40,468 nt of DNA from IMG/VR virus record IMGVR_UViG_3300044832_000046, positions 1-40,468 of that record, one strand, 5' to 3'. The notes beneath the pieces are model-generated. The model was not told the origin of the DNA, did not search any database, and saw only the letters and a list, made by a program, of their open reading frames with translations. A program made the position numbers and the translations under genes. Each line of letters opens with the position of its first letter. The first letter of the stretch is position 1. This DNA is from a virus. This document shows positions 8,797 through 31,914 of the stretch, in pieces.

Positions 8797-8885
8797 GAGT
8801 AAACGCTCTTGGTCGGGGTCAAGGTAGCGCACATAATCCGAACAACCAAAGATCATATAGTTAGTTCGACCGGCATAAGTAAAGC
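8797..8885 (-). promoter_or_regulatory. AT-rich leader, probable promoter of the capsid genes
   Basis: The stretch between the terminator at 8923-8954 and the capsid start is much richer in A and T than the rest of the window (for example catatagttagttcg and cacataatccgaac). On the leftward strand it holds TTTACT and TATATG-like boxes about 18 bases apart. Its placement just downstream of a terminator and upstream of the capsid gene supports a separate capsid promoter; the exact hexamers are uncertain. Confidence 0.45.
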
Positions 8886-8922
8886 TGACGCCCACTCAGG
8901 CCATGGAAACGCAGACGCAAGA

Positions 8923-8954
8923 GAGCCCCAGCCGGGTGAGGTCGGCTGGGGCTC
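8923..8954 (-). terminator. Terminator after the MuF/protease gene
   Basis: GAGCCCCAGCC (8923-8933) pairs perfectly with GGCTGGGGCTC (8944-8954) around a 10-base loop. On the leftward strand the stem is followed by TCTTGCGTCTGCGTTT, a T-rich tract, consistent with an intrinsic terminator. Confidence 0.7.
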
Positions 8955-8967
8955 CTGGTTGCTGATT

Positions 8968-9027
8968 CTACGTGTGGTCAGGCGCCGGGGGCGGCGGGGG
9001 AGCGGGCTGGTTGCATCCGCAGGACAT
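8968..9027 (-). CDS. 19-residue Cys/Pro-rich micro-ORF
   Basis: The ATG at 9027 is one base after the stop of the MuF/protease gene and has a very strong ribosome site (GGGAGG, about seven bases upstream). The peptide is MSCGCNQPAPPPPPAPDHT: a CGC pair, a proline run and an acidic/His tail. It ends 14 bases before the terminator, so it would be the last cistron of the portal operon. The strong site and tight spacing are the evidence; function unknown. Confidence 0.45.
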   Translation of the reverse strand: MSCGCNQPAPPPPPAPDHT

Positions 9028-9028
9028 C

Positions 9029-12000
9029 TCATTCCCTCCCTTCGTGCACGCGGTTGAACAGCATGTCCATCACCGTGCGGAACGCCTGCTGCACGGTCTC
9101 CTGCTCCGACTTGCCGTGCGTCACGGTCGGCCGACCGGCCGCGACCAGAGCCTGCTGGGCCCCGGAGGCGACGCGAGCACGGACCTTGGGCACGGGGAAG
9201 CCGGGGACGTTGACCGCGAGCAGACCCACCATGCGGAGCTGGCCGCCGATGCGGCGCCAGTCACCGGACACCTGTCCGGACGCCCGGAGTTCGTGGACCA
9301 GCAGCGGGTCGGCGCCGGGGCGGATCGCACCGGCGACCCAGATGCCGTGGGCGTCGTTGCCGACGGAGACGTCAGCCACGGCCGAGCCGGTGTTGTCGTA
9401 GTGCTCAGCGGCGGGCTGAGCCGCGTAGTTGAGCGGGGCGTGGCCGGTGCCCACGGTGATCTGCCCGACGGCTACCCGGCCGCCCTCGGCCGTGACGACC
9501 TCGCCGGTCATGTAGTACGGGTGCTGGTCCTCGTGCGGCGGCTGGATGCACGCGTCGGACTGGCCGATGTGGCAGGCGCCCCACATGGCGGCGTGGCCGT
9601 AGATGCGGCCGCTGTCGTCCACCTGGATGCCGGTGGGGACGGACAGCTTCGGGTCGGCGAACCACTCCTGCGGCGGCTTCCACTCCGGGCCTCCGTGGGC
9701 GACGAGGCCGTCCACCGAGGGGGCGAACACCACGTGGTGCTGCACCTTGTCGGTCGGCTGGCCTCCGGCCACGACCGCTCCGGCCTCGTCCAGCAGGGCG
9801 ATGTACGCCTCAGCGAACGCAGGGATGTCGCAGAGCGTTGCCGCCCTGATCCGGCCGCCGTGGAACACGACCTTCTCCGGCGAGGTCATCAGCAGGTCGA
9901 ACAGGTCTGCGTCCTCGCCGGTGGGGGTGCCCTCGGGCATGACGTACTCGATGTCAGCGTCGCTGATCGAGTCAGCGTCGATGCTGACGCCCCGGATGAA
10001 CTGGCCCTTGATCATGTCGTGCACGCGCTGGCCGTCGACCTCCGCGAGGTTCAGCACGCCCTCGCCCATGAGCAGGCTGCCGTCCCGCCAGATGCGGTCG
10101 ATGCGGCCGACGTTGACCGCCACGGTGTGGGGCTCGCCACCGTGGGAGTCCTCCTTGTTCCAGCGCAGCGGCAGCGGCAGGTCGGCCCACGCGAGCGCGC
10201 CGGTGGCGAACTCTCGCCCGTCGCCGGTCACCTTGCCCTCGATCGCCAGGGGGCCCTGCCAGGGGGCGGTGGTCTCGGGGGCCATGTCCTCCACGGCGGC
10301 CGGGGCACTCGCGGCGGCCGTGGTGCCCTTCTTGACGCACTTGCCGTTCGGGTCGGGCTCCATGCCGGGCGGGCACTCCTTGAGCTTGCCCTTGGCGGCC
10401 ATGGCCAGCTCGACCTCGTCGGCCAGCGTGGCCTTGATGGCGTCGGGGGCGTCCTCGCCGATCTGGCTGTAGTGGGAGCGCAGGTGCGCCTTGGCGCTGG
10501 CGACAGCCGCCGGGTCGTGACCCTCCAGGGAGCTGACGCGCTGCGCGGCGGCGTGGACGCCATCCCTGTTCAGGGCGCCGTCGGGCTCGTGATGCGGCAG
10601 GAAGCAGCGGGACTTGACGGTGCCCTCGCCGGGGTCACAGGCAGCGGTGGCCCGCTGGTACTGGTCGTCGTCGTACCGGCTGGCGGCACCGTCCCAGGCG
10701 GCCTCGACCACGCTGGTGGTGAAGTGCGCGTCGGTCTCCTCGTCCACCGTGACGGTGTCCTCGGTGGCCGCCTTGTTGTTGGGCTTGAGCCGCTTGTCCT
10801 TCTTGGTGCCTTCGCTCGGCTTGCCGCCCAGCTCGGTTTCTGCCACGGCAATCGCCGTCCCTTCGGTCTGGGGTGCTGCTGCGGCCGTCGCGGCCTGGTC
10901 CCACACGGAGATGAGTGTTCCACGGCACCGGCCACCGCCTTGGCACAGTACATACCCGCCACCGGGATATGCCTCGTTCGCCGAGGTCAGGGTGCTGAAC
11001 TCGGTACCGTCGATGCCCTTGCACGGCTTGCAGGTGTTGTGGTCCAGGGCCTCGCTGGCGAAGTAGTTGGCGGGCTCCGCCACCCTCAGCACGGCCAGGC
11101 GCCCGAAGTTCTGAGCGGCCGTCATGGCCTCGCCGATGTTCTCCCGGGGGTAGGCCAGGGACAGGTCGGTGAGGTGCTTGTCGACCTGCGTGGCCAGCTC
11201 GGAGCCGGTCTTGCCCCCGCCGAACAGCCGGGAGGCCGTCCGCTTGGCCGACTGGACCAGGCTGCCGCCCAGCACGGACGCCTTGGTCCGGCTGATGGCC
11301 CGGATCAGGTCGCGGGGAGAGAGGGCTGCGGTGAGGGCGTCGTCGTCCAGGCTCCACTCCGGCACCTTGACGCCCTGGTGCTCGGCCTCGCGCTGCTGCG
11401 CCCGGCCAGCCTGCTCGGCCAGCGCGGTCATCCGCCGGTAGAAGGCTTCGGCCGCCGGGTCTGTGTCGACGTGCAGCTGCTCCAGTGCCCCCAGGTCGTC
11501 CCCGAAAGCGGCGATCTGGCCTCGGATCTCCTGGCGCCACTGCGCGGCGAACACGCCGTACTCGCCGGTGGCCGTGGTCACGGCCGACTCCCAGTCGCGC
11601 TGGTGCCCGGCGAAGTCCCAGCCGCTGGCCTGCTCGGCGTCGGTGAGGTTGCGGCGCAGCGGAGCGGCGGCGGCCGTCACGGCAGAGGCGAGGGGGATGT
11701 CGGTGTCCTCCTTGCCGAAGCTGATCCGGATCCGGTCGAAGGTCACCGGGCCCAGCCGCTGCTCCAGGGTCTTGAGCAGGGACGGGTCGGAGGTATAGGC
11801 CGCACAGATGTGGGCGACCCACGGGGTGTGCTGGTCGGGCAGGCCGAGGTCTTCCAGCGGCTCCTCCACGGCCTTGTGCACGTGGCCCAGCTTGACCTCG
11901 GGCTCGGGCTGGTCGCCCACGTTCCAGACCCAACTGGGGCTGGAGCCGCCAGCGTTCCAGTGCGCGGCACCGAAGATGTTGGCGGTGAACGGGGTGAAGT

Positions 12001-12280
12001 CCTGAGCCGCCATCCGGACGATGTCGGTGATCGTCTTGCGGGCGAGGTCATCGAAGGCCGACCCGTCCTCACCAAGGAAGAAGAGGGTGAGGTGCAGTTC
12101 CGCCGACGATTCGCCGCCCCCGATGGCAAGTCGCTTCGCATCCGAAGCCGTTGGCATCAGGGCGATCATCCCGCCGGACAGGTGGGATCCGTCGGAGGCC
12201 AGCTCCGCCCGGCGGCCGTGGGCCGACTGCACGTGGTGACCGGCCTGGTGGAAGGACTCAGAGCTGAACTCGGTGGCCAT
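9029..12280 (-). CDS. 2H-phosphoesterase-like / MuF / capsid-maturation protease fusion
   Basis: 1,083 residues; ATG 12280 has GAAGG six bases upstream and overlaps the portal end by 23 bases. Residues about 35-195 look like a 2H phosphoesterase (2'-5' RNA ligase/cyclic phosphodiesterase) domain: motif one is H63-L-T65 in ELHLTLFFLG, motif two is H157-I-C159 in WVAHICAAYT, so the second Thr/Ser is replaced by Cys. Residues about 220-460 are MuF-like, with the metal-type cluster C417-x2-C420 and C446/C452. Residues about 555-612 form a charged helical segment. Residues about 675-820 resemble actinophage capsid-maturation proteases, with candidate catalytic H718 (GEPHTVAV) and S766 (GVSIDAD). 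The C-terminal 230 residues are a further head-maturation domain. MuF-protease fusions are known in actinophages; the N-terminal 2H domain is the unusual part. Confidence 0.8.
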   Translation of the reverse strand: MATEFSSESFHQAGHHVQSAHGRRAELASDGSHLSGGMIALMPTASDAKRLAIGGGESSAELHLTLFFLGEDGSAFDDLARKTITDIVRMAAQDFTPFTANIFGAAHWNAGGSSPSWVWNVGDQPEPEVKLGHVHKAVEEPLEDLGLPDQHTPWVAHICAAYTSDPSLLKTLEQRLGPVTFDRIRISFGKEDTDIPLASAVTAAAAPLRRNLTDAEQASGWDFAGHQRDWESAVTTATGEYGVFAAQWRQEIRGQIAAFGDDLGALEQLHVDTDPAAEAFYRRMTALAEQAGRAQQREAEHQGVKVPEWSLDDDALTAALSPRDLIRAISRTKASVLGGSLVQSAKRTASRLFGGGKTGSELATQVDKHLTDLSLAYPRENIGEAMTAAQNFGRLAVLRVAEPANYFASEALDHNTCKPCKGIDGTEFSTLTSANEAYPGGGYVLCQGGGRCRGTLISVWDQAATAAAAPQTEGTAIAVAETELGGKPSEGTKKDKRLKPNNKAATEDTVTVDEETDAHFTTSVVEAAWDGAASRYDDDQYQRATAACDPGEGTVKSRCFLPHHEPDGALNRDGVHAAAQRVSSLEGHDPAAVASAKAHLRSHYSQIGEDAPDAIKATLADEVELAMAAKGKLKECPPGMEPDPNGKCVKKGTTAAASAPAAVEDMAPETTAPWQGPLAIEGKVTGDGREFATGALAWADLPLPLRWNKEDSHGGEPHTVAVNVGRIDRIWRDGSLLMGEGVLNLAEVDGQRVHDMIKGQFIRGVSIDADSISDADIEYVMPEGTPTGEDADLFDLLMTSPEKVVFHGGRIRAATLCDIPAFAEAYIALLDEAGAVVAGGQPTDKVQHHVVFAPSVDGLVAHGGPEWKPPQEWFADPKLSVPTGIQVDDSGRIYGHAAMWGACHIGQSDACIQPPHEDQHPYYMTGEVVTAEGGRVAVGQITVGTGHAPLNYAAQPAAEHYDNTGSAVADVSVGNDAHGIWVAGAIRPGADPLLVHELRASGQVSGDWRRIGGQLRMVGLLAVNVPGFPVPKVRARVASGAQQALVAAGRPTVTHGKSEQETVQQAFRTVMDMLFNRVHEGRE

Positions 12281-14069
12281 TGGCTGCCTTCCCCTTCCGG
12301 GTGGCGATGCCCTGGACCGGGATCCAGGCGGACGTGTCCAGCTCGGGCGCCGGGCGGCCGACGATGAACTGCCCGAAGGTGTCCAGCCTGCACTCGTACG
12401 TGCCGGAGGTCAGGTGCGTGGGCAGCGCGGTCCAGGCCGCGTGGGTGAAGGGGCAGCTGTAGCTGTGCTCGGCGCACAGCGGCGGGTGGAGCAGCACCCC
12501 GGGCTCGACCTTGCTGAAGCGCACCGCGTGCAGGGCCCGCACCTGAGCGTTGATCAGCTCCGCCCGCGCCTTGACCTTGTCCGGCGGGGGAGGCTGCTCC
12601 CCCTTGCCGGGAGGACCGGGCTGAACGCCCTTCTCCGGAGGCGGGGGCGCCTGCTCCTTGGGATTGGGCGCACCGCCGCTCGCAGGCGGAGAGGCGGCAG
12701 GAGCGAGCAGCGGCTCCAGCACCTTCTTGCCGAGCAGGGCGTCCAGCGCGGCCGGGGCTGCGCCGGGGGTGTTGCGCAGCATCGTCTTGAGGCCGATGTC
12801 CTTCAGCTCGTCGGGCGTCGGGGCGTCGTCCTCATCGAAGCCGCCTTCGCGGCGCAGCGCCCGGCCGCTCAGCTCCATGCGGTCGTAGGTGGCCTGAGCG
12901 TTCTCGCTGCGGTCCGGCCGGACGGCCAGCTCGCTCATGTCGTACCAGACCGCGTACTGGGCGATCTCCTTGTCCGGCATGCCCGACGCCTTGAGCCGGG
13001 GGTGCAGGTAGCCGCGCGTCAGGCTGTCGCAGATGGCCTCGGCCGTCGGGGCGATGTGGGTCTTGAGGGCACCCTCGTCCAGCTGCCAGGCCGTCCAGTG
13101 GTTGATCTTGGACATGCCGGTCAGCACCTCGGCCGGGATGTCGAGCTTGTTGGCCAGGCGGTGGATCGCGCTCTCGCGCTTCTCGATGACCTTGTCGTCC
13201 AGCTTGAGCGTGAAGTCGATGTGGCGGATCTTGTCCACGAACTCGCCGGGGACCTTGATCGGGATCGGGATGACCGCGCTGGCGGTGCCCGGCGTGCGGA
13301 TGGCCTCGGCCGCGATCTCGATCCACTCGGCGGTGAAGGGGTCAGGGGCGTCCTCGAACTCGGCTCGCACCGGGAAGGTGACCTCTTCGGGCAGCACGAG
13401 CACGCCCGCGCTCGCCAGGCGGCTGAGGTACTGCGCGGTGATGTGCCGGTTGACCAGCTCCAGTTCGCGCATGACGGGCAGCGCGGCGCGGGCGGTCGAG
13501 TCGGCCAGGTGGTAGAACCGGGCGTGCGGCCGCCAGATACGGACCGGGAGGCTGCCGGAGGGCAGGTCGGTCCAGGCGACGTTGGGGATGCGCTCGGTGA
13601 CGACCTGGAACTTGCCGTTCTGGGCTCGGACTTCGTCAATCGAGCGGATGGTCCAGCTCTCGGCTCCGATGTCGCCTTCGCCGATCAGGTAGCAGTCTCC
13701 GGGCACGGTGAGCTGGAGCGCGAGGCCGCGCATGATGTTGGACTGACCGCCCACGCCACCGGCGAGCGCGCCCATGATCTCGGAGGCGATGCCCTTGTCC
13801 ACGATGCTGGGCTCGTCGGCGTCAGCGGTGACCTCGGCCGCCCGAAGGCGCACCCGGGAGAGCATGTTGGCCAGCCACCAGGCGGCGGTGTTGAACTCAC
13901 CGAGGCTGTCGTAGAAACCCCAGGCTTCGGCCTGCCAGGCTTGGGTGTGCTGGAGGAACTGCGACTGCGGACCCTTGACGACCGTGGCGGCGGCCGTGAC
14001 GGCCTGCGGCTCGGGCATCGGGGCAGGCAGAGGGCGGCGGCCGATCCCGAACGCTGAGTACCACGGCAT
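12258..14069 (-). CDS. Portal protein
   Basis: 603 residues from ATG 14069, with GGGAGG six bases upstream; the longer in-frame ORF runs back through a terminator hairpin and is not used. It forms the dodecameric ring at the head vertex through which DNA passes. The sequence has the layout of phage portals: an N-terminal wing with EFNTAAWWLANMLSRVRLRA, a central QYLSRLASAGVLVLPEEVTF segment, the helical IEKRESAIHRLANKLDIPAE followed by VLTGMSKINHWTAWQLDEGA, and a Pro/Gly-rich C-terminal region around residues 465-500. It is followed by the MuF/protease gene, as is standard. A small C-terminal domain with LCAEHSYSCPF and W-rich sequence extends past the usual portal end. Confidence 0.85.
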   Translation of the reverse strand: MPWYSAFGIGRRPLPAPMPEPQAVTAAATVVKGPQSQFLQHTQAWQAEAWGFYDSLGEFNTAAWWLANMLSRVRLRAAEVTADADEPSIVDKGIASEIMGALAGGVGGQSNIMRGLALQLTVPGDCYLIGEGDIGAESWTIRSIDEVRAQNGKFQVVTERIPNVAWTDLPSGSLPVRIWRPHARFYHLADSTARAALPVMRELELVNRHITAQYLSRLASAGVLVLPEEVTFPVRAEFEDAPDPFTAEWIEIAAEAIRTPGTASAVIPIPIKVPGEFVDKIRHIDFTLKLDDKVIEKRESAIHRLANKLDIPAEVLTGMSKINHWTAWQLDEGALKTHIAPTAEAICDSLTRGYLHPRLKASGMPDKEIAQYAVWYDMSELAVRPDRSENAQATYDRMELSGRALRREGGFDEDDAPTPDELKDIGLKTMLRNTPGAAPAALDALLGKKVLEPLLAPAASPPASGGAPNPKEQAPPPPEKGVQPGPPGKGEQPPPPDKVKARAELINAQVRALHAVRFSKVEPGVLLHPPLCAEHSYSCPFTHAAWTALPTHLTSGTYECRLDTFGQFIVGRPAPELDTSAWIPVQGIATRKGKAANGHRVQL

Positions 14070-14138
14070 GTGAAGCCTCCCGGCCTTGGTCGAGGACAGG
14101 GTACCGTCGATCACCTGTAACGCCGCGCCGGGCAGCGC

Positions 14139-14172
14139 AGAGCCCCGTCGCGGTGGGCCACGACGGGGCTCT
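14139..14172 (-). terminator. 12-bp stem hairpin before the portal gene
   Basis: AGAGCCCCGTCG (14139-14150) pairs perfectly with CGACGGGGCTCT (14161-14172) around a 10-base loop, after the last gene of the lysis/terminase operon and before the portal. Its stem shares the AGAGCCCC...GGGGCTCT design with the hairpin at 8923-8954. A clear T-tract is missing on the leftward strand. Confidence 0.6.
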
Positions 14173-14204
14173 GTGTTGCTGCTGCAAGGGCCACCGTACA
14201 GCAC

Positions 14205-14471
14205 TCAGCCCAGTGGGTGACCGTTGGAGTTGATGGACCCGGCCTGAGCGATGATCAGCCCACTCATCGACTGGACGGTCTGGTGGATCTGCCGGTCCCA
14301 GGTCTCCGCGTCGGCCTTGGGCAGGACGACGGTGAGCGTGGCGTTGGGGACGCGGACGGTGAGGATCATCACCTGGCCCTCGGGGGTGTTCTGCACGCTG
14401 GTGCTCAGCCATGCCGGGCTGGTGCCGACCGCCGGGTGCCCGGGGTCGTATGGCGGTATCTCGGCGGTCAT
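14205..14471 (-). CDS. Hypothetical protein, 88 aa
   Basis: ATG 14471 overlaps the TGA of the methyltransferase gene (ATGA). The protein has a Pro-rich lead (MTAEIPPYDPGHPAVGTSPA), a strand pair QVMILTVRVPNATLTVVLPK and a C-terminal helix ETWDRQIHQTVQSMSG. There are no Cys, membrane segments or enzyme motifs. It is the last gene before the hairpin at 14139. I do not recognise a function. Confidence 0.7.
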   Translation of the reverse strand: MTAEIPPYDPGHPAVGTSPAWLSTSVQNTPEGQVMILTVRVPNATLTVVLPKADAETWDRQIHQTVQSMSGLIIAQAGSINSNGHPLG

Positions 14472-20854: not shown

Positions 20855-21391
20855 TTAGACGGTGCTGTCCCCGGCCGGGGCGGCAGCTATGGCCAGTAGC
20901 CTGCCCTGTGCGGCCTCCATTGCACGCAGCCGCATCTCCGGGCCGAGCCCCAGGATCTCGATGGCCGCGAGCACGGCCTCCGCCACGGCGGTCGACTCCA
21001 TCTCGATGCGGTGGGACAGCTCGACCTGAGTCGGAGCCTCCAGTCCCTTGATCTTGCAGATCTGCGCGATCAGCCGGGCGGCCGCGTCGATGGACTGGGT
21101 GTGGCCCTGCACGGCCTTGGGCCAGGTGGCGGCCAGCAGCCGTTCAAGGCGGTCGAGTTGCAGCTCACGGAGGTCTTCGACCGAGGTGTCGAGCTGCGCC
21201 CGGCTGCGCTCGCGGGCCCGCTTCAGGTCCATGCTGACGTGGTCGGCCGAGCTGTAGCCCTGGCCCTTGAGCTGCTGGTAGATGGTCTCCAGGTCGACCC
21301 CTGCCAGGCGCAGCTGGACGGCCTGCTTGCGCCGCTGCTCGACGCGGTGCTGCTCTTCGTCCTTGGACTCTCCGGGATTCCCAGTGGGCAT
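20855..21391 (-). CDS. Probable terminase small subunit
   Basis: 178 residues from ATG 21391 with AGGAG upstream. The N-terminal half holds a helix-turn-helix (VQLRLAGVDLETIYQQLKGQ, then GYSSADHVSMDLKRA), followed by a charged helix (VEDLRELQLDRLERLLAATW), WPKAVQGHTQSIDAAARLI and a KGLEAPTQVEL segment. This order is shared by many actinobacterial phage and prophage small-terminase/DNA-binding proteins. It would recognise packaging sites and recruit the large subunit. It is separated from the large subunit by the coiled-coil, endolysin and protease genes. Confidence 0.6.
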   Translation of the reverse strand: MPTGNPGESKDEEQHRVEQRRKQAVQLRLAGVDLETIYQQLKGQGYSSADHVSMDLKRARERSRAQLDTSVEDLRELQLDRLERLLAATWPKAVQGHTQSIDAAARLIAQICKIKGLEAPTQVELSHRIEMESTAVAEAVLAAIEILGLGPEMRLRAMEAAQGRLLAIAAAPAGDSTV

Positions 21392-21425: not shown

Positions 21426-22325
21426 TTACCGGACGCCGGTAGCCTTGCGCAGCTCCTGGTCGGGGGAGCCGCACTCGGTGATCTTTGTGCGGAAGTAGGA
21501 CACGATGCTGACCCGCTCGGCACCGCACGCCTGGCAGAAGCCGTTGGGCTCCCGGCCGCAGGCGCACACCAGGGCGGTGTTGCCGTGCCACTGGTGGGCG
21601 TCCATGAGGATCAGGTCCCCGTGCTTCAGGTCGACCGCGACGCGGTACTCGGGGAACACCAGGTGGCCGCCGGTGTAGTCGCCCCGGCGCAGCACCGCGA
21701 TCGTGCTGAAGCCCGCGTCCAGGTCGCCCTTGTCGGTGTGGACCCCGGTCGGGTACGTGTTGTTGACGGTGATCGTGCTGAACGGCGTACCGGGCACGAC
21801 CCAGGCCGGATTGGTGCGGTCGGCCTCGGCCTGCTGCGCGGCGGCACGCTCGGGGACGTGGCGCTTCTGGAGTTCGGCCACGCGCTGGAAGATCGGGTGG
21901 AGCGTCTGCCACTCCGGCATGTGCGTGCCGGTCCAGGCCGTCAGGCGGCAGTGCTGCTTCTGGCCCTGCGGGTCGACGGCACCCGCGATCATCGACGGCA
22001 CCTGGCGGGAGTAGGTGCGCCCCGGGCCCCGGCGCCCGTCCTCGGTGCGGCCGTGCAGGGTCTGGATGCGCTGGCTGCCGGACGCCAGGCCACGGTTGTT
22101 GGTCTTGTGGACCCGCAGCGAGTGCAGGATCTCGTAGACGCCCGGCTTGTCCAGCTCGCCGAGGAGGGCCCCGGGCAGGTACACGCACAGCGGCCGGTTG
22201 TCGGGCATGCGGATACGAGCCGGGCCGGTCAGCAGCAGGTTGTAGTCCGCCGGGCCGAGGATCTTCCCGGCCTTGGCCGCCAGCTCCTGCTCGGACACCC
22301 TCGTCCTCAGCCGTAGGTCGATCAC
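21426..22325 (-). CDS. TET/JBP-family 2OG-Fe(II) dioxygenase
   Basis: 299 residues from GTG 22325 (GTGA overlap with the kinase). The iron ligands of the double-stranded beta-helix are visible: His196 and Asp198 (GVHTDKGD), and distal His247 (QWHGNT); the 2-oxoglutarate-binding Arg is R271 or R279 (RVSIVSYFR). Between them come a GGHLVFPEYRVAVDLKHGD strand set typical of TET/JBP enzymes. An insert before the Arg carries C254, C256, C264 and C267, a probable zinc site. JBP enzymes hydroxylate the methyl of thymine and TET that of 5-methylcytosine. No C5-cytosine methylase is seen in the window, so thymine is the likelier substrate. It is the last enzyme of the modification block. Confidence 0.8.
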   Translation of the reverse strand: MIDLRLRTRVSEQELAAKAGKILGPADYNLLLTGPARIRMPDNRPLCVYLPGALLGELDKPGVYEILHSLRVHKTNNRGLASGSQRIQTLHGRTEDGRRGPGRTYSRQVPSMIAGAVDPQGQKQHCRLTAWTGTHMPEWQTLHPIFQRVAELQKRHVPERAAAQQAEADRTNPAWVVPGTPFSTITVNNTYPTGVHTDKGDLDAGFSTIAVLRRGDYTGGHLVFPEYRVAVDLKHGDLILMDAHQWHGNTALVCACGREPNGFCQACGAERVSIVSYFRTKITECGSPDQELRKATGVR

Positions 22326-23035
22326 CGCAGCACCTCCAGTTCGGGATCGAGGCCGAGCAGGAAGTCGGCGATCCGGTGGGGCGGACGGTCGGCACGGATG
22401 ACGTGCACGTCGGCGTCCATCTGCATTCTCTCAGTCAGGCGGACCGCCCTGGTCGCTGCGCCCCGCATCCACTGCTCGTTCTGGGTCGAGCCCCGGGCCA
22501 GCCGCCGCTCCGCGAGGGTGTGCTGGTCGGCCGTCAGGTGCACGAGCATCACCTTGTACCCGGAGTTGCGCGCGGCCATCAGGAAGCCCACGGTGCCCAG
22601 CCGCGCTCCCTCACCGAGGATCAGCGAGTGGGGCTTGGTGGCGATCCACTCGACCGCCTTGGGCTGGACGCTCATGCCCAGGGAGTCCGTGCCGCTGAAG
22701 GCGTCGCGCCGCTTGCCCAGTTCGACCGCCACGGGGTCGGAGGAGAGCAGGCCGGTCGGATCGTGGCGCAGCAGGTGGTCGTGGGCGAACGGCTGGGTCC
22801 TGGCGAGACGCTGGCAGCGCTCGGTCAGTGCGGCCATCAGCGTCGACTTGCCCACACCGGGGGAGCCGACCAGGTACAGCAGGGTGCTCACAGCAGCTCC
22901 TTCATCGTCATCCGGCCACGAGCACACGTGGTCCGCGCAGGGTGGGTCTTGGCTGCACAGGTCGCAGTGCCGGGGATGGCACTCTCCGCAGCGCGTGCAC
23001 GGGACGGTCTGCCAGGGACCGTCCAGGTAGCTCAC
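22322..23035 (-). CDS. P-loop kinase (DNA-hypermodification type) with Cys-rich N-terminus
   Basis: 237 residues from GTG 23035 (AAGGA six bases upstream). Walker A is G57-S-P-G-V-G-K-S-T65; ILGEGAR holds the Walker B-like acid (E142); DAFSGTDSLGM is the GTD motif seen in nucleotide-like kinases of phage base-modification loci. The first 48 residues are a Cys cluster (C13, C16, C19, C24, C27, C33, C38), probably binding zinc and perhaps DNA. A second good start, GTG 22891 with its own AAGGAG, would give a 189-residue kinase without that module. The likely reaction is phosphorylation of a hydroxymethylated pyrimidine in DNA. Confidence 0.75.
   Translation of the reverse strand: MSYLDGPWQTVPCTRCGECHPRHCDLCSQDPPCADHVCSWPDDDEGAAVSTLLYLVGSPGVGKSTLMAALTERCQRLARTQPFAHDHLLRHDPTGLLSSDPVAVELGKRRDAFSGTDSLGMSVQPKAVEWIATKPHSLILGEGARLGTVGFLMAARNSGYKVMLVHLTADQHTLAERRLARGSTQNEQWMRGAATRAVRLTERMQMDADVHVIRADRPPHRIADFLLGLDPELEVLR
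22886..22907. repeat. 22-bp direct repeat, inner copy
   Basis: GCTCACAGCAGCTCCTTCATCG; matches 23030-23051 with one mismatch, spaced exactly 144 bp (48 codons). It carries the ribosome site and GTG start for the short form of the kinase. Confidence 0.85.
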
Positions 23036-23051
23036 AGCAGTTCCTTCATCG
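23030..23051. repeat. 22-bp direct repeat, outer copy
   Basis: GCTCACAGCAGTTCCTTCATCG; spans the end of the PLP-enzyme gene (MKELL stop) and the GTG start of the long kinase form. Confidence 0.85.
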
Positions 23052-24048
23052 CGCTCAGGTGGGGCTCGGACCCGATGATCCAGAACAGCTCGGTCCCGTC
23101 ACCCGGCTTGTGCCAGTGGGGCTGCTCGTCGTGCAGCCACTTCATGACCTTGCCCTCGTAGGTCGGGTGGAAGTCGATGCCGTCCTGCCGCCACGGGCGG
23201 CGGTCGGCGTACTTGACGTACCCGGTGCCGTGCAGGTCGTAGTGCTCCAGCAGCACGGGCCCGGTGTCCGGCATGTCGCCCCGGCTGCCGTTGTGCGGGC
23301 GCCAGTTGAACAGGCCGGTGATGTCGAGCCCCGTCGCTGCGCCTATCTGGTCCAGCCGCTTGTGGAGCCAGGCCAGCCGGTTAGGGCCTATGCCCACCAG
23401 CACGACTCGGCTGATCGAGCCGGGGCCGTACTTGGCCAGGCCGGTCAGGATGCCGGTCGCGCTGTTGGCCGAGCCGAACGGCAGCACGAGCGTGCGCACC
23501 TGGCTGGGGATGTTGACGACCTGCGGTGCGGCGACGAGGTGGAACTGCGCGATCTGCCGTGGCCCGGCCTCCGCCGGGGTGGTGATGCCGTAGGGCACGA
23601 CGTACGAGTTGTGCTCCGCACGGTGCAGCGCGACCGCCCGCTGGAGCGCCGGGTTGTACGCGACCTTGACGAACTTGAGCTGCGCCCCGGCCGCCACGGC
23701 GATCTTCACGTTCTCGTGCTTCACCGCACTGGTCGCGTTGGTCGCCCCGAGGATCACCGTGACGTCGAGCCCGAAGTGGCGGCCGACCAGAGCGGTCATG
23801 CTGGACTGCGGGCTGAGCACCGAGCAGGCCGTGACCACCGGCCACTGGTTGTCCATGTGCTGCATCAGGTAGATGAGCTGGCGGAGCTTGGAGCCGTTGA
23901 TGCCGCCGTAGCCCAGGGGGGCGAAGGCGTCCTCGCGCTTGAACCAGAGCCCTGACTCCCCCTGCTCCACCGGGGTCAGGGTGTCGGTGAGGTCGGCCCA
24001 TGAGACGTCCCGGGGCAGCAGCTCATGGAAGATCGTGCCGCTGCTCAT
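23032..24048 (-). CDS. Fold-type II PLP-dependent enzyme
   Basis: 338 residues from ATG 24048, which shares one base with the preceding stop (TGATG). The active-site Lys is expected in YGGINGSKLRQL, comparable to the GxNxxRKL region of D-cysteine desulfhydrase and ACC deaminase; TACSVLSPQSSMTALVGRHF is the Asn/Ser-rich cofactor strand and LPFGSANSATGILTGLAKYG is the Gly-rich phosphate-binding loop. In base-hypermodification loci, PLP enzymes are predicted to alter amino acids attached to the base, for example by decarboxylation or deamination. It lies between a conserved small ORF and the kinase. The exact reaction cannot be read from the sequence. Confidence 0.75.
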   Translation of the reverse strand: MSSGTIFHELLPRDVSWADLTDTLTPVEQGESGLWFKREDAFAPLGYGGINGSKLRQLIYLMQHMDNQWPVVTACSVLSPQSSMTALVGRHFGLDVTVILGATNATSAVKHENVKIAVAAGAQLKFVKVAYNPALQRAVALHRAEHNSYVVPYGITTPAEAGPRQIAQFHLVAAPQVVNIPSQVRTLVLPFGSANSATGILTGLAKYGPGSISRVVLVGIGPNRLAWLHKRLDQIGAATGLDITGLFNWRPHNGSRGDMPDTGPVLLEHYDLHGTGYVKYADRRPWRQDGIDFHPTYEGKVMKWLHDEQPHWHKPGDGTELFWIIGSEPHLSAMKELL

Positions 24049-24323
24049 CAGTTCACCGGACCCAGCAGCACGATGGGCGCGGCATCCATCGGCTGGTAGG
24101 CGTCGGGATCGTCGGGGTCGGGCGCAGCGGGATGGACCTCTCCGCTCCAGGTGGTGTCCGGCTCGTAGGCGTAGCCGGTCGGGTCGACCGAGCTGAGCGG
24201 CGAATAGCCGTTGCCCTCCGCGTCCTTCTGGAGGATCACGGGGGTGTCGTCGGGGACTCCCTCCAGCCGGGCGCGCAGCTCCCCGGCCGTGACCACGTAC
24301 TGCTTCCAGCCGTCGGTGTTCAC
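24048..24323 (-). CDS. Conserved hypothetical protein, 91 aa
   Basis: GTG 24323 overlaps the stop of the aGPT-PPlase gene (GTGA). Begins MNTDGWKQYVVTAGELRARL, then GVPDDTPVILQKDAEGNGYS and an acidic/Pro-rich middle, ending in MDAAPIVLLGPVN. The TAGELRARLEG...VPDDTPV pattern is familiar from short proteins in Streptomyces and their phages, but no function is known to me. It is fully embedded in the modification operon and coupled on both sides, so it may be a structural or regulatory partner of the neighbouring enzymes. Confidence 0.65.
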   Translation of the reverse strand: MNTDGWKQYVVTAGELRARLEGVPDDTPVILQKDAEGNGYSPLSSVDPTGYAYEPDTTWSGEVHPAAPDPDDPDAYQPMDAAPIVLLGPVN

Positions 24324-25444
24324 CGCAGTACCATCCTGTCTCGCTTGATGTCGCGCCGGAGGCCGAACTCACCATGACCCACGGCGACGTCGAAAGTGGA
24401 CCAGAACACCGGATCGTCGTGGCCCATGACCGGGATCTCGCCGTACTCGCGATACCAGTTCTGCTTGGTCGGGGCGCAGCCCGGGTCGTAGGGGTTGTCC
24501 TCCAGCCGCATCCAGCGGGGCAGGCACTCGGTGCGCGCTCGCCAGAACGGTGCCGTGTGCTGGACGCCCCCGCCGGGCCAGGTCGCCTCGTATCGGCGCA
24601 GCCGGTCGTAGAGCATGTCGTTGTAGACGCCGGGGTACCGCCGGTTGGGCTTGTGCCAGCCCTTGTACGTGCACAGGGCGGACTCCAGCGTGAAGTTGTT
24701 GACGTCTCCCGCCCAGCCCGCTCCGGCGCGGTCCTGCGCCTCTTCGAGGATGCTCGCGGCCACGGTCCCCAGCTTGGTGATGTCCCCGGCCGTGTAGCTC
24801 CCGTCGAAGGTGCCCAGGGCCTTGTCCCAGACGAGGTCGTCGCGGCCGGTGGCGATGCACAGCCCGTTGCGGTGGGAGCGCGAGCCGTCCTTGTCGCCCA
24901 GGAACAGGTCGTCGCAGTCGAACTGCACGCCCATGATCTTCAGGTACTCGGCGTACGAGAAGGCGCTCAGACGGCCGAACCCGTACAGGCTGGTGGCCCT
25001 GGCCCAGACTCCGGCGAACCCTCCGGAGGCGGCAGCTGACCACATGTCTGCCTGGCTTCCGCCGTAGGGGCGCAGCGCGGTGACGTAGCTGTCCACGGCC
25101 TCGGGCAGGCTCTTCTTCCAGTGGCGGCGGTCGGTGTCGAACGCCAGCCAGGGGTAGTGCTTCTGGTAGAAGCGGATCATGCGACGGACGTGCTCGTCGT
25201 TGGCCGGGTCGGGACAGACCTGGTGCAGGATCAGCGACGTGACCGGGTGCTGGGTGTTGCCGTTGAGGAACGCGAACCACAGGGCCTGCTCGTCCGTCCA
25301 GCCGTAGTGCTTGCGGAGCCAAGGCAGGACGTAGTACACCGCGCCAGGGCTGCTGCGCCGCTGGCAGGTCCACAGGAAGAACCGGATGAAGACCTCGCGC
25401 CGGTACTCCTGCCGCCGGAAGTCCATGCCTCGCTCAAGCTGCAC
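24320..25444 (-). CDS. aGPT-PPlase2-like thymine-hypermodification enzyme
   Basis: 374 residues from GTG 25444 with GGGAGG six bases upstream. The N-terminal region has the family signature SSPGAVYYVLPWLRKHYGWT followed by WFAFLNGNTQHPVTSL (residues 56-71). Further conserved-looking blocks are SLYGFGRLSAFSYAEYLKIM, LCIATGRDD, and LESALCTYKGWHKPNRRYPG near the C-terminus. This matches the alpha-glutamyl/putrescinyl-thymine pyrophosphorylase clade 2 fold, related to DNA glycosylases. Such enzymes are predicted to displace the (pyro)phosphate on 5-hydroxymethyluracil with an amino acid or amine. In this operon it would act after the kinase. Confidence 0.75.
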   Translation of the reverse strand: MQLERGMDFRRQEYRREVFIRFFLWTCQRRSSPGAVYYVLPWLRKHYGWTDEQALWFAFLNGNTQHPVTSLILHQVCPDPANDEHVRRMIRFYQKHYPWLAFDTDRRHWKKSLPEAVDSYVTALRPYGGSQADMWSAAASGGFAGVWARATSLYGFGRLSAFSYAEYLKIMGVQFDCDDLFLGDKDGSRSHRNGLCIATGRDDLVWDKALGTFDGSYTAGDITKLGTVAASILEEAQDRAGAGWAGDVNNFTLESALCTYKGWHKPNRRYPGVYNDMLYDRLRRYEATWPGGGVQHTAPFWRARTECLPRWMRLEDNPYDPGCAPTKQNWYREYGEIPVMGHDDPVFWSTFDVAVGHGEFGLRRDIKRDRMVLR

Positions 25445-25724
25445 CGTGAGCCTCCCTCATGTGAAGCACGATGAGCAGCGGCCGAACGGCCGCGCCGCAC
25501 TCGACGCACAGCGTCTGCGCCCGCTCGACCTCGGGGTCCCGAGCGTGCTGCTCCCCGAGGGCTTCGGCCAGCCGCTCCGCCACGCGCAGCGCCATCGGGG
25601 TCGAGCGGGCGAAGGTGCCCCGGTCGGTCCAGCCGCACAGGCACTCGACCCCCCAGTTGCCGCCGGGCTGCGCCCCGTTGAAGGCAGCCCAGCCGACGGT
25701 GATGTGCTCAGTCGGTGCTGACAT
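25434..25724 (-). CDS. Zinc-finger-like small protein, 96 aa
   Basis: ATG 25724 with GAGGA five bases upstream; overlaps the ParB-like gene by 17 bases and the next gene by 11. The N-terminal part has VECLCGWTDRG; the C-terminal has CVECGAAVRPLLIVLHMREA followed by HGAA, a C2H2-type arrangement (Cys-x2-Cys, then His and His). It may bind DNA next to the modification enzymes. I do not know a named family. Confidence 0.65.
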   Translation of the reverse strand: MSAPTEHITVGWAAFNGAQPGGNWGVECLCGWTDRGTFARSTPMALRVAERLAEALGEQHARDPEVERAQTLCVECGAAVRPLLIVLHMREAHGAA

Positions 25725-26415
25725 CAGCGTCCTCGACCTCGGCGTGGGTGCGCAGCGCGTACAGCACGATCTCCCCGGCGGTCAGGTCGCCGTCCCGCTC
25801 GCGCACCCGCTTGATCAGCTCAGCGGCCTCGGTGCGGTTGGCGATGGTCATCACCAGGATCAGCTCGGTCATCGCTCCGTCACCGTCGCCCCCGCCGTGG
25901 CGGGGCTCGTAGCTCTCGACGCGCTCACGCCGGGCCTGCTCCTCCTCCTCGGACTCGGCGTAGCGGGCGGCCGTGGGGCCGACCTCCGGCATCACGGTGG
26001 CGGCCGGTTCGAGCCGGGCGATCAGGTCGTCCAGCTCGTCGGGGTCGTAGCCGGTGCCGGACAGGTCGTCGGCGAAGGGCTTCAGCAGCTCCAGCAGTGC
26101 GCCGTTGTCGTACCCGCCCCACTCCTTGGACTTGTTGTCCAGCAGGTTGATCTTCACGGCGGTCTCGTCGTCCATCCGGTAGACCTCGCACCGGGAGTCG
26201 CTGCGCCCCAGGGAGGACAGCGCGAGCATCGTGTGGTTGCCCGCGACCACGACGTGCTGACCGTCGTCGGTGCGCCGGACCACCAGCGGCCGGTACTGGC
26301 CGTGCTCGGTGATGGACTCGGCGATCTTCTCGACGTCGCCCTGCCAGGCGTTGCCCGGGAAGGGCTTCAGCTCGGACAGCAGGATGTGGTCGGTTTCGAC
26401 GTACTCGGCAGTCAT
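25708..26415 (-). CDS. ParB-like (ParB/Srx fold) protein
   Basis: 235 residues from ATG 26415 (ATGA overlap). Residues 10-100 match a ParB N-terminal domain: ILLSELKPFPGNAWQGDVEK, IAESITEHGQYRPLVV, and the nucleotide-binding-type VVVAGNHTMLALSSLG, in which GNHT replaces the usual GxxR-type motif. The remainder is acidic and ends in a helical domain (TELILVMTIANRTEAAELIK). Phage ParB-like proteins often sit in DNA-modification neighbourhoods rather than acting in partition; here it heads the block of modification enzymes. It may load or guide the enzymes on DNA, or act as a nuclease/CTPase; this is inference. Confidence 0.75.
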   Translation of the reverse strand: MTAEYVETDHILLSELKPFPGNAWQGDVEKIAESITEHGQYRPLVVRRTDDGQHVVVAGNHTMLALSSLGRSDSRCEVYRMDDETAVKINLLDNKSKEWGGYDNGALLELLKPFADDLSGTGYDPDELDDLIARLEPAATVMPEVGPTAARYAESEEEEQARRERVESYEPRHGGGDGDGAMTELILVMTIANRTEAAELIKRVRERDGDLTAGEIVLYALRTHAEVEDADVSTD

Positions 26416-27553: not shown

Positions 27554-27634
27554 CCTACTCTACGTAGTAGTAACTTGTCCGATAACTGCATACGGTAACC
27601 GTATACCCAACCGGTCTGCCGTATAGGTTACTTG
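27554..27634. repeat. 81-bp intergenic control element, copy B
   Basis: Second copy of the element at 19294-19374. It begins at the last codon of the polymerase fusion on the leftward strand and contains the same CTACGTAG core and CCGTATA/TATACGG half-sites. Beyond the element the coding sequences of the two upstream genes are unrelated. Confidence 0.8.
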
Positions 27635-30600
27635 GCGGAGCACTCACCCCAACTGGCCCCCGGACGGGACAGTTCCGACAGGATCGGCACGCCTTTCCAC
27701 TCCCAGGTGAAAGCGTCGAGGATGTCCGCGCCGATCTCCTCGGCCCGGTCGGCGGGGACGGAGAACACGAACTCGTCGTGAACCCAGGTGCGGAGGTACT
27801 GCGCGTAGTTGGGGTGCCGGTCCATCAGGCGGAGCAGCACCTCCATGGTGATGTCCCGCGCGCCGCCCTGGCCCATGAGGGCGGGCGCCACGGTGTAGGC
27901 CCAGTTCGGGTCGCACCGCATCAGCCGACCGAAGCCGTTGTCCAGCAGCTCGCCCCGGCCTCCGATGTCGCGCACCTTCTCGGTCCAGGCGTCCTTGACG
28001 GTGAACTGGCTCATGACCTCGAAGAAGGCCCGAACCAGCTCCGGGGCGTGGCCCTCACGCTCGATCATCGTGCGGGCGCCCATGCCGTAGTTGTAGCCGT
28101 GGCCCAGCGGCTTGGCCTCGTCGCGGGTCACGCCCATCATGGCGGCGATCTCCGCGTGGGCGTCCTTCCCGGGCTCGTACAGCGCCATGTACCGCTCGTC
28201 CTGGCAGTGCCCGGCCACCGCCCGCATGTCGACCTGGCTCAGGTCGCAGGTGATGATCACGTGACCCTCGTCCGCGATGAAGATGTCCCGCTCGACATGC
28301 TTGCCGTTGCGCTTGCCGAAGACCGTCATGCCCGGCTCGGTGATGCTGCCCCGGCCGGACGCCTGGCGCATGCTCACCTTGGGGTGGACCCGGCCAGCGG
28401 CCGTCAGGTAGGTGGCCGCTGTCTGGTAGACGGTGCGGGTCTTGGTCACGATGGCCATCAGCCCGAGGGCTTCCTTCAGCTCCGCCGGGCAGCGCGGGTG
28501 CGCCGCGATGACGTCCAGGGCCTCGGCCGCCGTGCTCAGCTTGCCCTTGTCGGTGCGCGGGGGAGCGACCACGTTGAACTGCTTCCACAGGTCGAGCAGC
28601 CAGGCGTTGCCCTCCTTGGTGGCGAGAGGGGAGCTGTGCGGCTCCCAGACGGCCTGCTTGGCCTTGCCGCGCCCCCTCATGACCTCGCGGCCCAGCGGGA
28701 GCCCGAAGGTGCCACCGAGGGACGCGAGGGCGGCCTGCTTCTTCTCCTCGCCCTCAGTCAGCCGCTGGTTGAGCAGCGGCACGTCGACCTTGAAGCCGTT
28801 GAGCGTCATCCGCCCCATGAGCCCGAGGATCTTGTGCTCGCGGGCCACGTAGGCGTCCCGGGCAGGCTCCAGCACCTCGCGCACGGCCTTGGAGGCTCCC
28901 AGGTCCCCGACGAGGTACGCGTTGTAATCGGCGTCGTCCTTCGGGATCTTGTCGAAGCCGCCGTGCTTGCGGGCCAGGGCCTTGATGTCGTCGGTCTTCC
29001 CGGCCACGCCGTAGCGCTCCGCGACGTGGTCCAGGTCGTACTCGTCAATGCTGGACTTGCCCCGGCTGCGCGGGGGGTGGGCCTGGCGGGCGACCGGCTC
29101 GGTGTCGACCGTCTTGGCGACGAACGCCTCCCAGTCGAGACCGTGGTAGTGCGCCAGCGCGAGCCCGTCGAACCCGAGCGCGTTGTGACCGTAGACCTCC
29201 GGCGCCGCCTCGATCATCTCGACCAGCTCCTCCGGCGGGACGCCGGTCCGGGTCGCCCCGTGCTGGTCGATCACTCCGGCGAGGCGTACGAAGCCCTCTC
29301 CGTACGTGAACTCCTCGGCGGCGGACGCGGTCTCCAGGTCGAACCCGATGGGCCCGGAGAGGTCGATCTGGGGAACCTCAGCGGGGGGTGCGGGGGTCTC
29401 CGCGAACGGGTCCATGACGGGCTCCGCGAAGGGGTCCACCAGGTCGGCGAACAGAAGATCGTTGATCTCCTCTGCGGTGTAGCTCGGCTGGGTGTCGTCC
29501 AGCCCGTTTTCCGAGTCTCCGGTCATGATCTTTTCGGTCTCCTGGTCTCCTGTTTTCAGTGAACGACTGTTTTCGGTTACGCCAGTTACGCCAGATCCGT
29601 TAACGCCTATGCGAGGCTCTTCTATAGCGGTTATCGGGGGACGCGTAACTGGCGTAACCGATCTTGGATCAGGGCCGCTGAACGGGTCGTTTACCGGAAT
29701 GTCCGTTTCGCCCGTTGAGCCCGGATTCTCCTTAAATTTGATTCCGACCCACGCCCGGAAGGTGCTCGCGGTAGGCAGGTCCGACTTCCGCGTCGAGAGG
29801 GCGTCTGAGCGCTTCACGACCTTGTACTGGACCCCGTGCTGGGCGACCATGTCGTGGCCCCCGAAACGGGCGCTGAACGTCTTCTCGGACCACTCCTTCT
29901 GGCCCCTCTCGCGGAGCCTGTCGTTGAAGATCGTCCGCAGCTCCGAGGAGATCACGTAGCGGCTGTGGTCGAACTCGATCTCGTCCGGTGCGAATGCCAG
30001 GATCAGGTCGGCCTCCTTGCGCCACTCCAGGGTGTCCTCGGTGACCCGGGTGGGCAGCTCGGGCATGATCTTCTCCAGCTCGTACCAGCGCCGTGCGCCC
30101 GCTGCCATCCACGCCAGCGCGGCCTCCATGGCCTGCGGGTCCAGCTTCAGCCGGTCACGCAGCGTGGCGTCCCCGACGCGGTCCTCCGGCCCGTGGCAGG
30201 CCGACTGGGACTTCCGGAACGTGAAGGGCCAACGCAGCAGCGCGAGCCGCCTCCAGGTTCCGTGGTCCGTCTCGTCCACGACCGGCTTGTAGTTGGAGTT
30301 GATGAACAGCGAGTGCGTCGCGGCGAAGGTCACCGGGTCCTGCCGGATGCGCCGCCCGGTGATCTCCCGGGTGCCCGCCAGCTTCTTCAGCCGGTTGGTG
30401 TCGAGCCTGCGGGACTCCGGCGTCTCCTCCAGGACCGCATACCGAGCACCCATCAGGTCCATGATCTCCGTGGGGTGGTTGTCGCTCGCTCCTCCGAGCA
30501 TCGTCCGGTCCGAGACCTGCACGTGGTACTTACCGGCCGCCAGCGCACAGGCGTCGTAGACCGTCGACTTGCCGTTCGCTCCGCCGCCCTGGCAGATGAT

Positions 30601-31914
30601 CACAAGGTCGTCCGGGGTCATGTGGCCGGTCAGGGCCTGGCCGACCCGGAGCTGGTACCAGTCGCGCACGTCCTCCGGCAGGGCCTCAAGTGCCTTGGTC
30701 CAGTCGGGGTGTTCGGCGTCCTTGACGAAGTCCGCACCGGAGATCTTCGTCATCAGCAGATCCTGGTCCGGCGGCTGGAGCCCGCCGGTGCGCAGGTCGA
30801 CTATGCCGTTGGGGCAGTTGAGCAGGTCCGGGTTGGAGTCGAACGCGTCGGCCGCGCAGGCGAGGATGCCCTTGGCGAGCTTGAGGACCGCCCCTATCCG
30901 ACCGGCCGACAGCACGCCGCGCCAGCCGTCGGAGACCGCCTGGAGATCCCGGCCGGTGCCGTGGTGCTGGGCGTCCACGCTCTGGTGGTAGTGCTCCATG
31001 ACCCACTGCCGGATGGCCTCGGTGACGTTGACCTCGTTGCTCTCCTTCCAGACCTTGCCGGTCCACTCCATCCAGCCCATGCCCGGAGCCCAGCGGAAGC
31101 GGTCGTCCAGCTCCTCGGAGCAGGCCGCGTCGGCCAGCATCGAGTCGGTGAAGGTCGCGTCCCGGGCCTCGTTGGGGATGGCGGACAGAGCCGCGTCGCG
31201 CAGGATCTCCATCGTGCCGCCAGCGGCGAAGAAGTCGTCCACGCCCTTGACGTCGACATCCCCGACCTTGGGCGGGACGATCAGGTACCGTACGTCCTGC
31301 GCACCCTTGGACTCCAGCCACCGGCCGAGCCGCTGCATGGCGAGCATGACGTTGCGGTTGGACCGGGCGTCGGAGTCGAAGCAGATGATCACCGCCCGGT
31401 TGCGGAGCGGGACATCCTCCCAGTCGCCCAGCGTGCCCATCTTCGAGCGCCAGTTGAAGACGCCCGTCAGGGTGATCACCGCCCGCTCCAGGCTGGCCAG
31501 GCAGTCGCCCTTCTTGATCCCCTCGGTGATCCAGAGTGTGTGGCTCGCGTCCCGGACCTTGTCGGCCACGCCCGGCGGGACGTCCAGCCGGTTGGGCACA
31601 CCGGCCTGGCTGGCGTACTTCTCCAGCTTGCCGCCGGGGGCCTCCTGCGGGATGGAGGGCTTCCACTGAGCCCCGATCTCCTCGCCGGTGACGCGGTACA
31701 TCGGCATCAGGATGCCGGGGAAGGCGAGGTCTTCCCGCCAGGCCCAGCGGGGGATGTGCAGGGCCTTGAGCCGGGCCCTGTCGTCGTCACCGCCGTACAG
31801 CGTCTCGTATCCACGAGCCGCTATCACCTCGGCATTGATCACCGAGCCTTCTAGCTGGCGCAGGTGACCGGGCATCAGGTCCCGGGGTGCCGCCGGGGGA
31901 GTCTCTTCGGTCAT
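27628..31914 (-). CDS. Primase-helicase-3'-5' exonuclease-DNA polymerase A fusion
   Basis: One uninterrupted 1,428-residue frame from ATG 31914. Residues 1-245: DUF3854/TOPRIM-like primase part, with the acid of LWITEGIKKGD and the FDSDA motif (179-183). Residues 260-690: D5-type/SF3 helicase, Walker A GGGANGKST (443-451), Walker B AVLEET, sensor FINSNYKP. Residues 735-850: Pro/Asp-rich linker with three DPF motifs. Residues 855-1010: DEDDy exonuclease, D859 and E861 (GFDLETA), N911/D916 and Y1000xxxD1004. Residues 1165-1428: family A polymerase with motif A D1224 (CDLSQVD), O-helix R1264/K1268/Y1276, and motif C HDE (1379-1381). All catalytic signatures look intact. Separate genes are usual; three activities in one chain are unusual. 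Confidence 0.85.
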   Translation of the reverse strand: MTEETPPAAPRDLMPGHLRQLEGSVINAEVIAARGYETLYGGDDDRARLKALHIPRWAWREDLAFPGILMPMYRVTGEEIGAQWKPSIPQEAPGGKLEKYASQAGVPNRLDVPPGVADKVRDASHTLWITEGIKKGDCLASLERAVITLTGVFNWRSKMGTLGDWEDVPLRNRAVIICFDSDARSNRNVMLAMQRLGRWLESKGAQDVRYLIVPPKVGDVDVKGVDDFFAAGGTMEILRDAALSAIPNEARDATFTDSMLADAACSEELDDRFRWAPGMGWMEWTGKVWKESNEVNVTEAIRQWVMEHYHQSVDAQHHGTGRDLQAVSDGWRGVLSAGRIGAVLKLAKGILACAADAFDSNPDLLNCPNGIVDLRTGGLQPPDQDLLMTKISGADFVKDAEHPDWTKALEALPEDVRDWYQLRVGQALTGHMTPDDLVIICQGGGANGKSTVYDACALAAGKYHVQVSDRTMLGGASDNHPTEIMDLMGARYAVLEETPESRRLDTNRLKKLAGTREITGRRIRQDPVTFAATHSLFINSNYKPVVDETDHGTWRRLALLRWPFTFRKSQSACHGPEDRVGDATLRDRLKLDPQAMEAALAWMAAGARRWYELEKIMPELPTRVTEDTLEWRKEADLILAFAPDEIEFDHSRYVISSELRTIFNDRLRERGQKEWSEKTFSARFGGHDMVAQHGVQYKVVKRSDALSTRKSDLPTASTFRAWVGIKFKENPGSTGETDIPVNDPFSGPDPRSVTPVTRPPITAIEEPRIGVNGSGVTGVTENSRSLKTGDQETEKIMTGDSENGLDDTQPSYTAEEINDLLFADLVDPFAEPVMDPFAETPAPPAEVPQIDLSGPIGFDLETASAAEEFTYGEGFVRLAGVIDQHGATRTGVPPEELVEMIEAAPEVYGHNALGFDGLALAHYHGLDWEAFVAKTVDTEPVARQAHPPRSRGKSSIDEYDLDHVAERYGVAGKTDDIKALARKHGGFDKIPKDDADYNAYLVGDLGASKAVREVLEPARDAYVAREHKILGLMGRMTLNGFKVDVPLLNQRLTEGEEKKQAALASLGGTFGLPLGREVMRGRGKAKQAVWEPHSSPLATKEGNAWLLDLWKQFNVVAPPRTDKGKLSTAAEALDVIAAHPRCPAELKEALGLMAIVTKTRTVYQTAATYLTAAGRVHPKVSMRQASGRGSITEPGMTVFGKRNGKHVERDIFIADEGHVIITCDLSQVDMRAVAGHCQDERYMALYEPGKDAHAEIAAMMGVTRDEAKPLGHGYNYGMGARTMIEREGHAPELVRAFFEVMSQFTVKDAWTEKVRDIGGRGELLDNGFGRLMRCDPNWAYTVAPALMGQGGARDITMEVLLRLMDRHPNYAQYLRTWVHDEFVFSVPADRAEEIGADILDAFTWEWKGVPILSELSRPGASWGECSAK

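Follow-up and report, generated by a model that had tools for sequence, protein, structure and literature searches.

The window, by which we mean the whole stretch of DNA analysed, is a single virus contig (40,468 bp, 69% GC) with an operon on its minus strand (positions 21426-26415) that we judge, with reasonable though not high confidence, to specify a TET-started, wholly DNA-level thymine hypermodification ending in 5-(2-aminoethoxy)methyl-dU (5-NeOmdU). The operon's gene content, the families, folds and catalytic residues of its products, their linkage, the replacement of the front end, and the pairing of the ADDT with the PLP enzyme are described below, and from these observations we infer the substrates, reaction order, final base, and role of the ParB protein as follows. 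The entire route would run on polymerised DNA, with TET replacing the nucleotide-level first step of phages such as Salmonella phage ViI. The TET/JBP enzyme would hydroxylate the 5-methyl group of selected thymines to give 5-hydroxymethyl-dU in DNA, the P-loop kinase would phosphorylate this to 5-phosphomethyl-dU, the ADDT would put an amino acid in place of the phosphate (with serine, O-linked on the ViI model, the likeliest candidate), and the PLP enzyme would decarboxylate the adduct to 5-NeOmdU. The ParB_N protein would probably help in site choice, and the likely purpose of the modification would be to shield the DNA against host restriction.

The genes are transcribed in the order ParB_N, orf96, ADDT, orf91, PLP enzyme, kinase, and TET/JBP (Table 1), with GTGA overlaps at the ADDT/orf91, PLP/kinase, and kinase/TET junctions and TGATG at orf91/PLP; these short start/stop overlaps bear out the translational coupling proposed in a preliminary description of this DNA. 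The frames lie where that description had located them, and the five families it named in one operon were all detected by Pfam above curated cut-offs, including Tet_JBP and aGPT-PPlase2 (now amino acid:DNA transferase, ADDT; PF18724), which it had expected profile searches to return. Its gene list lacked the two small frames, orf96 and orf91, the first of which had no Pfam or PHROG match. The protein adjoining the operon downstream lies outside the claimed pathway and is syntenic with the operon in loci L010, L015, and L016.

Table 1 Features of the operon and its downstream neighbour in the window.
Feature	Coordinates	Strand	Matches
ParB_N-domain protein of 235 aa	25708..26415	-	PF02195 2.3e-6; phrog_723 9.1e-43
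orf96, small protein with cysteine pairs	25434..25724	-	weak relative in L016
ADDT (ViI type)	24320..25444	-	PF18724 2.4e-17
orf91, small protein	24048..24323	-	weak DUF6225, PF19735 1.9e-4, below cut-off
Fold-II PLP enzyme	23032..24048	-	PALP PF00291 1.6e-10; phrog_3650 1.8e-87
P-loop kinase	22322..23035	-	Ploopntkinase3 PF18751 5.8e-34; phrog_800
TET/JBP Fe(II)/2OG dioxygenase	21426..22325	-	Tet_JBP PF12851 8.8e-19
178-aa protein	20855..21391	-	phrog_645 5.5e-22

The contig also encodes structural proteins (terminase, portal, major head, and major tail), and a 1428-aa fusion of a D5-type primase/helicase with a family-A DNA polymerase lies at window positions 27628-31914 (Pfam, PHROG). Because a close relative, G001, which keeps the gene order of the window at 74-89% identity across the operon region, extends over 87.8 kb, the window contig is probably a fragment, and gene absences in the window alone therefore carry little meaning. 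When a collection of isolate genomes was scanned with a closer TET alignment (A6), relatives of the TET were found in the genomes of Streptomyces africanus and Actinomadura rayongensis, which makes an actinobacterial host likely for this soil-type phage. A phage-like contig of S. africanus NRRL B-24243 belongs to the Gly/FAD type described below.

The oxygenase matched Tet_JBP at 67.8 bits (curated cut-off 34.9), and the residues H196-x-D198, H247, and R271, which the preliminary description had recognised as an HxD...H...R iron/2OG pattern, are invariant in 37 relatives. A Foldseek search of PDB with its AlphaFold2 model (pLDDT 93.7) placed CcTet, NgTET1, TET2, and CMD1 entries in the top 26 positions. 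The single TET sequence and the larger TET profile A5 gave no credible PDB match, whereas profile A1, built from a broad TET alignment, did. We predict that the enzyme is a thymine C5-methyl hydroxylase acting on DNA. Thymine as the substrate is suggested by genomic context, and the solved TET structures that head the fold match belong to enzymes acting mainly on 5mC or 6mA, a preference that counts against the thymine reading.

The kinase retains a conserved GxPGxGK motif and a mostly conserved GTD motif, and its true start may lie inside the annotated frame, as the conserved part spans residues ~46-237. Two features count against our reading of this enzyme: its family is PF18751, whereas the characterised HMUDK proteins fall in PF18748/PF18747, and the operon lacks the HMUDK_hel and HMUD2 proteins of M6 and ViI. 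It does share phrog_800 with M6 gp54, PaMx11 gp49, and Vi01_061c, and M6 gp54 matches HMUDK_HMUD1, the 5-hmdU DNA kinase Pfam family. We predict a 5-hydroxymethyl-dU DNA kinase, and, given the PHROG 800 shared with M6 gp54, the protein may work as one. The label 'terminase small subunit' attached to phrog_800 was rejected on account of the same M6 gp54 match, and is likely wrong.

The ADDT scored 63.9 bits against PF18724 (cut-off 26.2). Its AF2 model (pLDDT 93.4) has a PUGT-like fold and found as its best PDB match 8z2n/8z2m, the 5-phosphomethyl-dU glycinyltransferase PaMx11 gp46 (TM 0.53/0.66, E 3.9e-3, and probability 1.00 against 8z2n), an entry that PaMx11 gp46 itself matched over its full length; the single ADDT sequence returned nothing credible from PDB. 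Taken together, the ADDT and TET searches of PDB drew credible matches from profiles A1 and A3 and from the two models. E values were 5e-21 to Vi01_199 of ViI, 4e-4 to PaMx11 gp46, and 2e-3 to M6 gp51. In the ADDT tree the Gly group is split from the rest with support of 100/100, and Vi01_199 sits on a very long branch (7.7), leaving the placement of ViI uncertain. The PLP enzyme is 37% identical to Vi01_182 (E 4e-65), whose family is phrog_3650, and M6 gp52 was matched to it by profile only. Its K57 (numbering from the translation of window:23032-24057) is invariant and is the probable Schiff-base lysine. Judged by sequence, both the ADDT and the PLP enzyme are nearest to those of ViI among the reference phages.

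Serine is reportedly the donor in the ViI pathway, and the PLP enzyme of that pathway is said to decarboxylate. We accordingly predict that the window's ADDT transfers serine to 5-phosphomethyl-dU and that its PLP enzyme then decarboxylates the attached residue. Because the ADDT and PLP enzyme are of the ViI type and ViI DNA contains 5-NeOmdU, which there replaces about 40% of thymidine (PMC11721090), the final base, which the preliminary description had called unknown, is probably 5-NeOmdU. The same DNA-level thymine pathway could instead use another amino donor, end in another base, or involve PLP chemistry other than decarboxylation; we consider this unlikely but deserving of attention, given that the best solved relatives of the PLP profile, D-cysteine desulfhydrase and ACC deaminase, are not decarboxylases and that the ADDT is merely 27% identical to Vi01_199. 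The M6 pathway also needs a radical SAM enzyme, and none was recognised by Pfam in the window's operon, which argues against an M6-like outcome. In favour of a different final base, M6 too has a PALP-family enzyme yet makes 5-(2-aminoethyl)dU (PMC6449724). The closeness of both window enzymes to ViI, together with the co-occurrence of the pair in 47 TET-positive clusters, favours serine transfer and decarboxylation to 5-NeOmdU over these variants.

Profile scans of IMG/VR and fetched phage records yielded 227 loci in 123 dereplicated clusters. All five genes recur in 32 dereplicated clusters, which excludes a chance grouping and makes the operon one of many; 49 clusters contain the quartet of ADDT, PLP enzyme, kinase, and TET, on one strand in 47/49 and within 6 kb in 47/49. 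Frames and catalytic residues are intact in the window, and the G001 counterpart is 75-85% identical with gene order kept. On these grounds we hold it very improbable that the operon has decayed or lies silent, or that its product is a rare minor mark and not a substantial substitution, a reading to which the putative roles of ParB_N and the small orfs lend some weight. A further 27 clusters (e.g. L107, L113, L118, and L126) and the Actinomadura locus L239 carry TET, often with ParB, and have no recognised ADDT, PLP, or FAD partner; other downstream chemistry is possible in these.

Across this collection, we read the gene content as two alternative front ends, one comprising a thymidylate-synthase (TS)-family dUMP hydroxymethylase with HMUDK_hel and the other comprising TET, usually with ParB, as TET and TS never co-occur, HMUDK_hel tracks TS, and ParB tracks TET. 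Among 92 ADDT clusters, 78 had TET only, six TS only, eight neither, and none both. The pattern was the same in clusters reached via PLP or ADDT scans, a subset chosen so that clusters were not selected for TET (54 TET only, 5 TS only, 12 neither, and 0 both; p=0.0005). In whole records, thymidylate-synthase-family genes were found in 0/28 TET-positive records, with TET presence verified at each of the 28 loci, and in 6/17 TET-negative records (p=0.0015); PF00303, the thymidylate-synthase family, was likewise found in 0/37 TET-positive whole records. HMUDK_hel (PF18723), which is present in M6 and PaMx11, was detected in 6/6 TS-positive and 0/31 TET-positive records including the window (p=4e-7), while ParB accompanies TET+ADDT in 53/78 clusters and TS+ADDT in 0/6. 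These tests count records as independent, so that shared ancestry makes the p-values look too strong, and the absences are statistical and not absolute, the records often being fragments. A search of the 17 TET-lacking records with A1, which had no built-in positive control, gave no matches. One contig, L214 (IMG/VR 3300031772_000007, 93.8 kb), encodes a Ser-type ADDT, PLP enzyme, kinase, and ParB at positions 8826-14345, alongside a protein resembling radical SAM enzymes (PF04055 at 1.1e-5, short of the cut-off), and neither TET nor a TS-family gene was found in the record; it possibly represents a third way to the hydroxymethyl group.

The preliminary description had noted the lack of both a dUMP hydroxymethylase and a C5-methylase, and this observation now extends to G001 and dozens of TET-positive records: no thymidylate-synthase-family gene (dUMP hydroxymethylase) and no C5-methylase (PF00145) was found in the window or in the 87.8-kb G001. 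These absences bear on a cytosine pathway, in which TET would oxidise 5-methylcytosine made by the host or by an unseen methylase and the later enzymes would decorate 5hmC. There is precedent for such a route in phages with a C5-methylase and TET, which make hypermodified cytosine (Burke et al. 2021, cited in PMC12730594), and one TET-positive relative, G008, carries a clear C5-methylase. Yet only 2/37 TET-positive records had a C5-methylase at E<=1e-3, one of them above the cut-off, and there was no enrichment (3/32 TET-positive vs 1/8 TET-negative). This non-association argues against the cytosine route, with host-made 5mC still compatible; the kinase and ADDT families are moreover tied to 5-hmdU, and TET sits in the place of the dUMP route. 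Overall we regard a cytosine pathway as improbable. For the DNA-level thymine pathway as first put forward, the gene-content absences have held, and the choice of thymine over 5mC keeps the standing of a prediction from genomic context.

The back-end genes form a cassette that can be exchanged, and the window carries its ViI-type version, the ADDT and PLP pair. ADDTs were typed by their better profile score as ViI-like ('Ser') or M6/PaMx11-like ('Gly'), labels that reflect what we take to be the chemistry of ViI and of M6/PaMx11. The Ser type occurred with PLP in the 47 TET-positive clusters mentioned above and the Gly type with an FAD enzyme in 13; no cluster had a crossed pairing alone, two scored for both types, and 11 Ser-type and five Gly-type TET-positive clusters had no recognised partner. 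Since PLP was the query that brought in many of the clusters, these counts are biased towards PLP beside Ser-type ADDT. L015 and L016 share the window-like context of ParB, kinase, TET, and 178-aa protein and have a Gly-type ADDT and FAD enzyme, a natural swap of the ADDT and PLP pair for the Gly/FAD cassette. Another contig, L079, has Ser- and Gly-type ADDTs together with PLP, kinase, and TET, perhaps indicating two modifications in one phage. A more specific model, in which TET marks thymines in particular sequence contexts after replication under ParB_N targeting, so that bases derived from amino acids would sit at specific sites instead of replacing a nucleotide in bulk, and in which front and back ends behave as interchangeable modules, is one that we put forward only tentatively.

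Comparison with known systems indicates which parts of the arrangement are new. ViI (Vi01), representing the 5-NeOmdU pathway of the Ackermannviridae, shares a homologous ADDT (Vi01_199), PLP enzyme (Vi01_182), and same-PHROG kinase, but has an annotated thymidylate synthase-family protein, Vi01_060c, for the step at nucleotide level, and HMUD2 (PF18747), whereas the window has neither and has TET and ParB instead. The Pseudomonas phages M6 and PaMx11 share the ADDT and kinase superfamilies, with PaMx11 gp46 as the best ADDT fold match, but possess a TS homologue with HMUDK_hel, a Gly-type ADDT, and other tailoring enzymes. The five-gene system of Rhodococcus phage Tonitrus, published as a predicted thymidine hypermodification (PMC11955845), likewise groups ParB, TET, ADDT, and a kinase within a single operon; its ADDT is of the Gly type and no PLP enzyme was found, in contrast to the ViI-type ADDT and PLP enzyme of the window. 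Mycobacteriophage Zemanar gp1-4 (L002) comprise ParB, TET/JBP, a ViI-like ADDT (gp3), and kinase, but have no PLP enzyme alongside, and the TET is ~20% identical to that of the window. Zemanar gp2 is annotated as a queuine tRNA-ribosyltransferase and matches Tet_JBP at 5.5e-6, below the gathering score, while gp4 carries the name 'terminase small subunit' despite a Ploopntkinase3 match at 3e-71; such misannotations probably recur across Coopervirus. In PMC12730594, gp2 of mycobacteriophage Cooper, a relative of Zemanar, serves as a reference for TET/JBP; the earlier studies of phage TETs that this paper cites deal with cytosine, which counts against thymine as the substrate here. Kinetoplastid JBP (base J) shares a TET/JBP-family oxygenase making hmU in DNA, which is then glucosylated, whereas the window pathway is predicted to phosphorylate it and then add an amino acid. 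The families and parts of the arrangement are thus already published (Cooper gp2; Tonitrus). In the literature searched we found no replacement of TS by TET with exclusion of HMUDK_hel, no ADDT cassette pairing, and no product prediction for the TET arrangement, parts of which may appear in earlier papers such as Iyer 2013 and Lee 2021.

If the proposed pathway is true, these phages would not need an altered nucleotide pool, as oxidation and decoration would follow the synthesis of normal DNA; the chemistry would resemble that of base J and TET, but the end product would be an aminated thymine. The action of a phage TET on thymine becomes directly testable, with a predicted product, and the findings account for several misnamed genes of sequenced actinophages. 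More broadly, they suggest an interchangeable enzyme set with which amine handles could be introduced into ordinary DNA.
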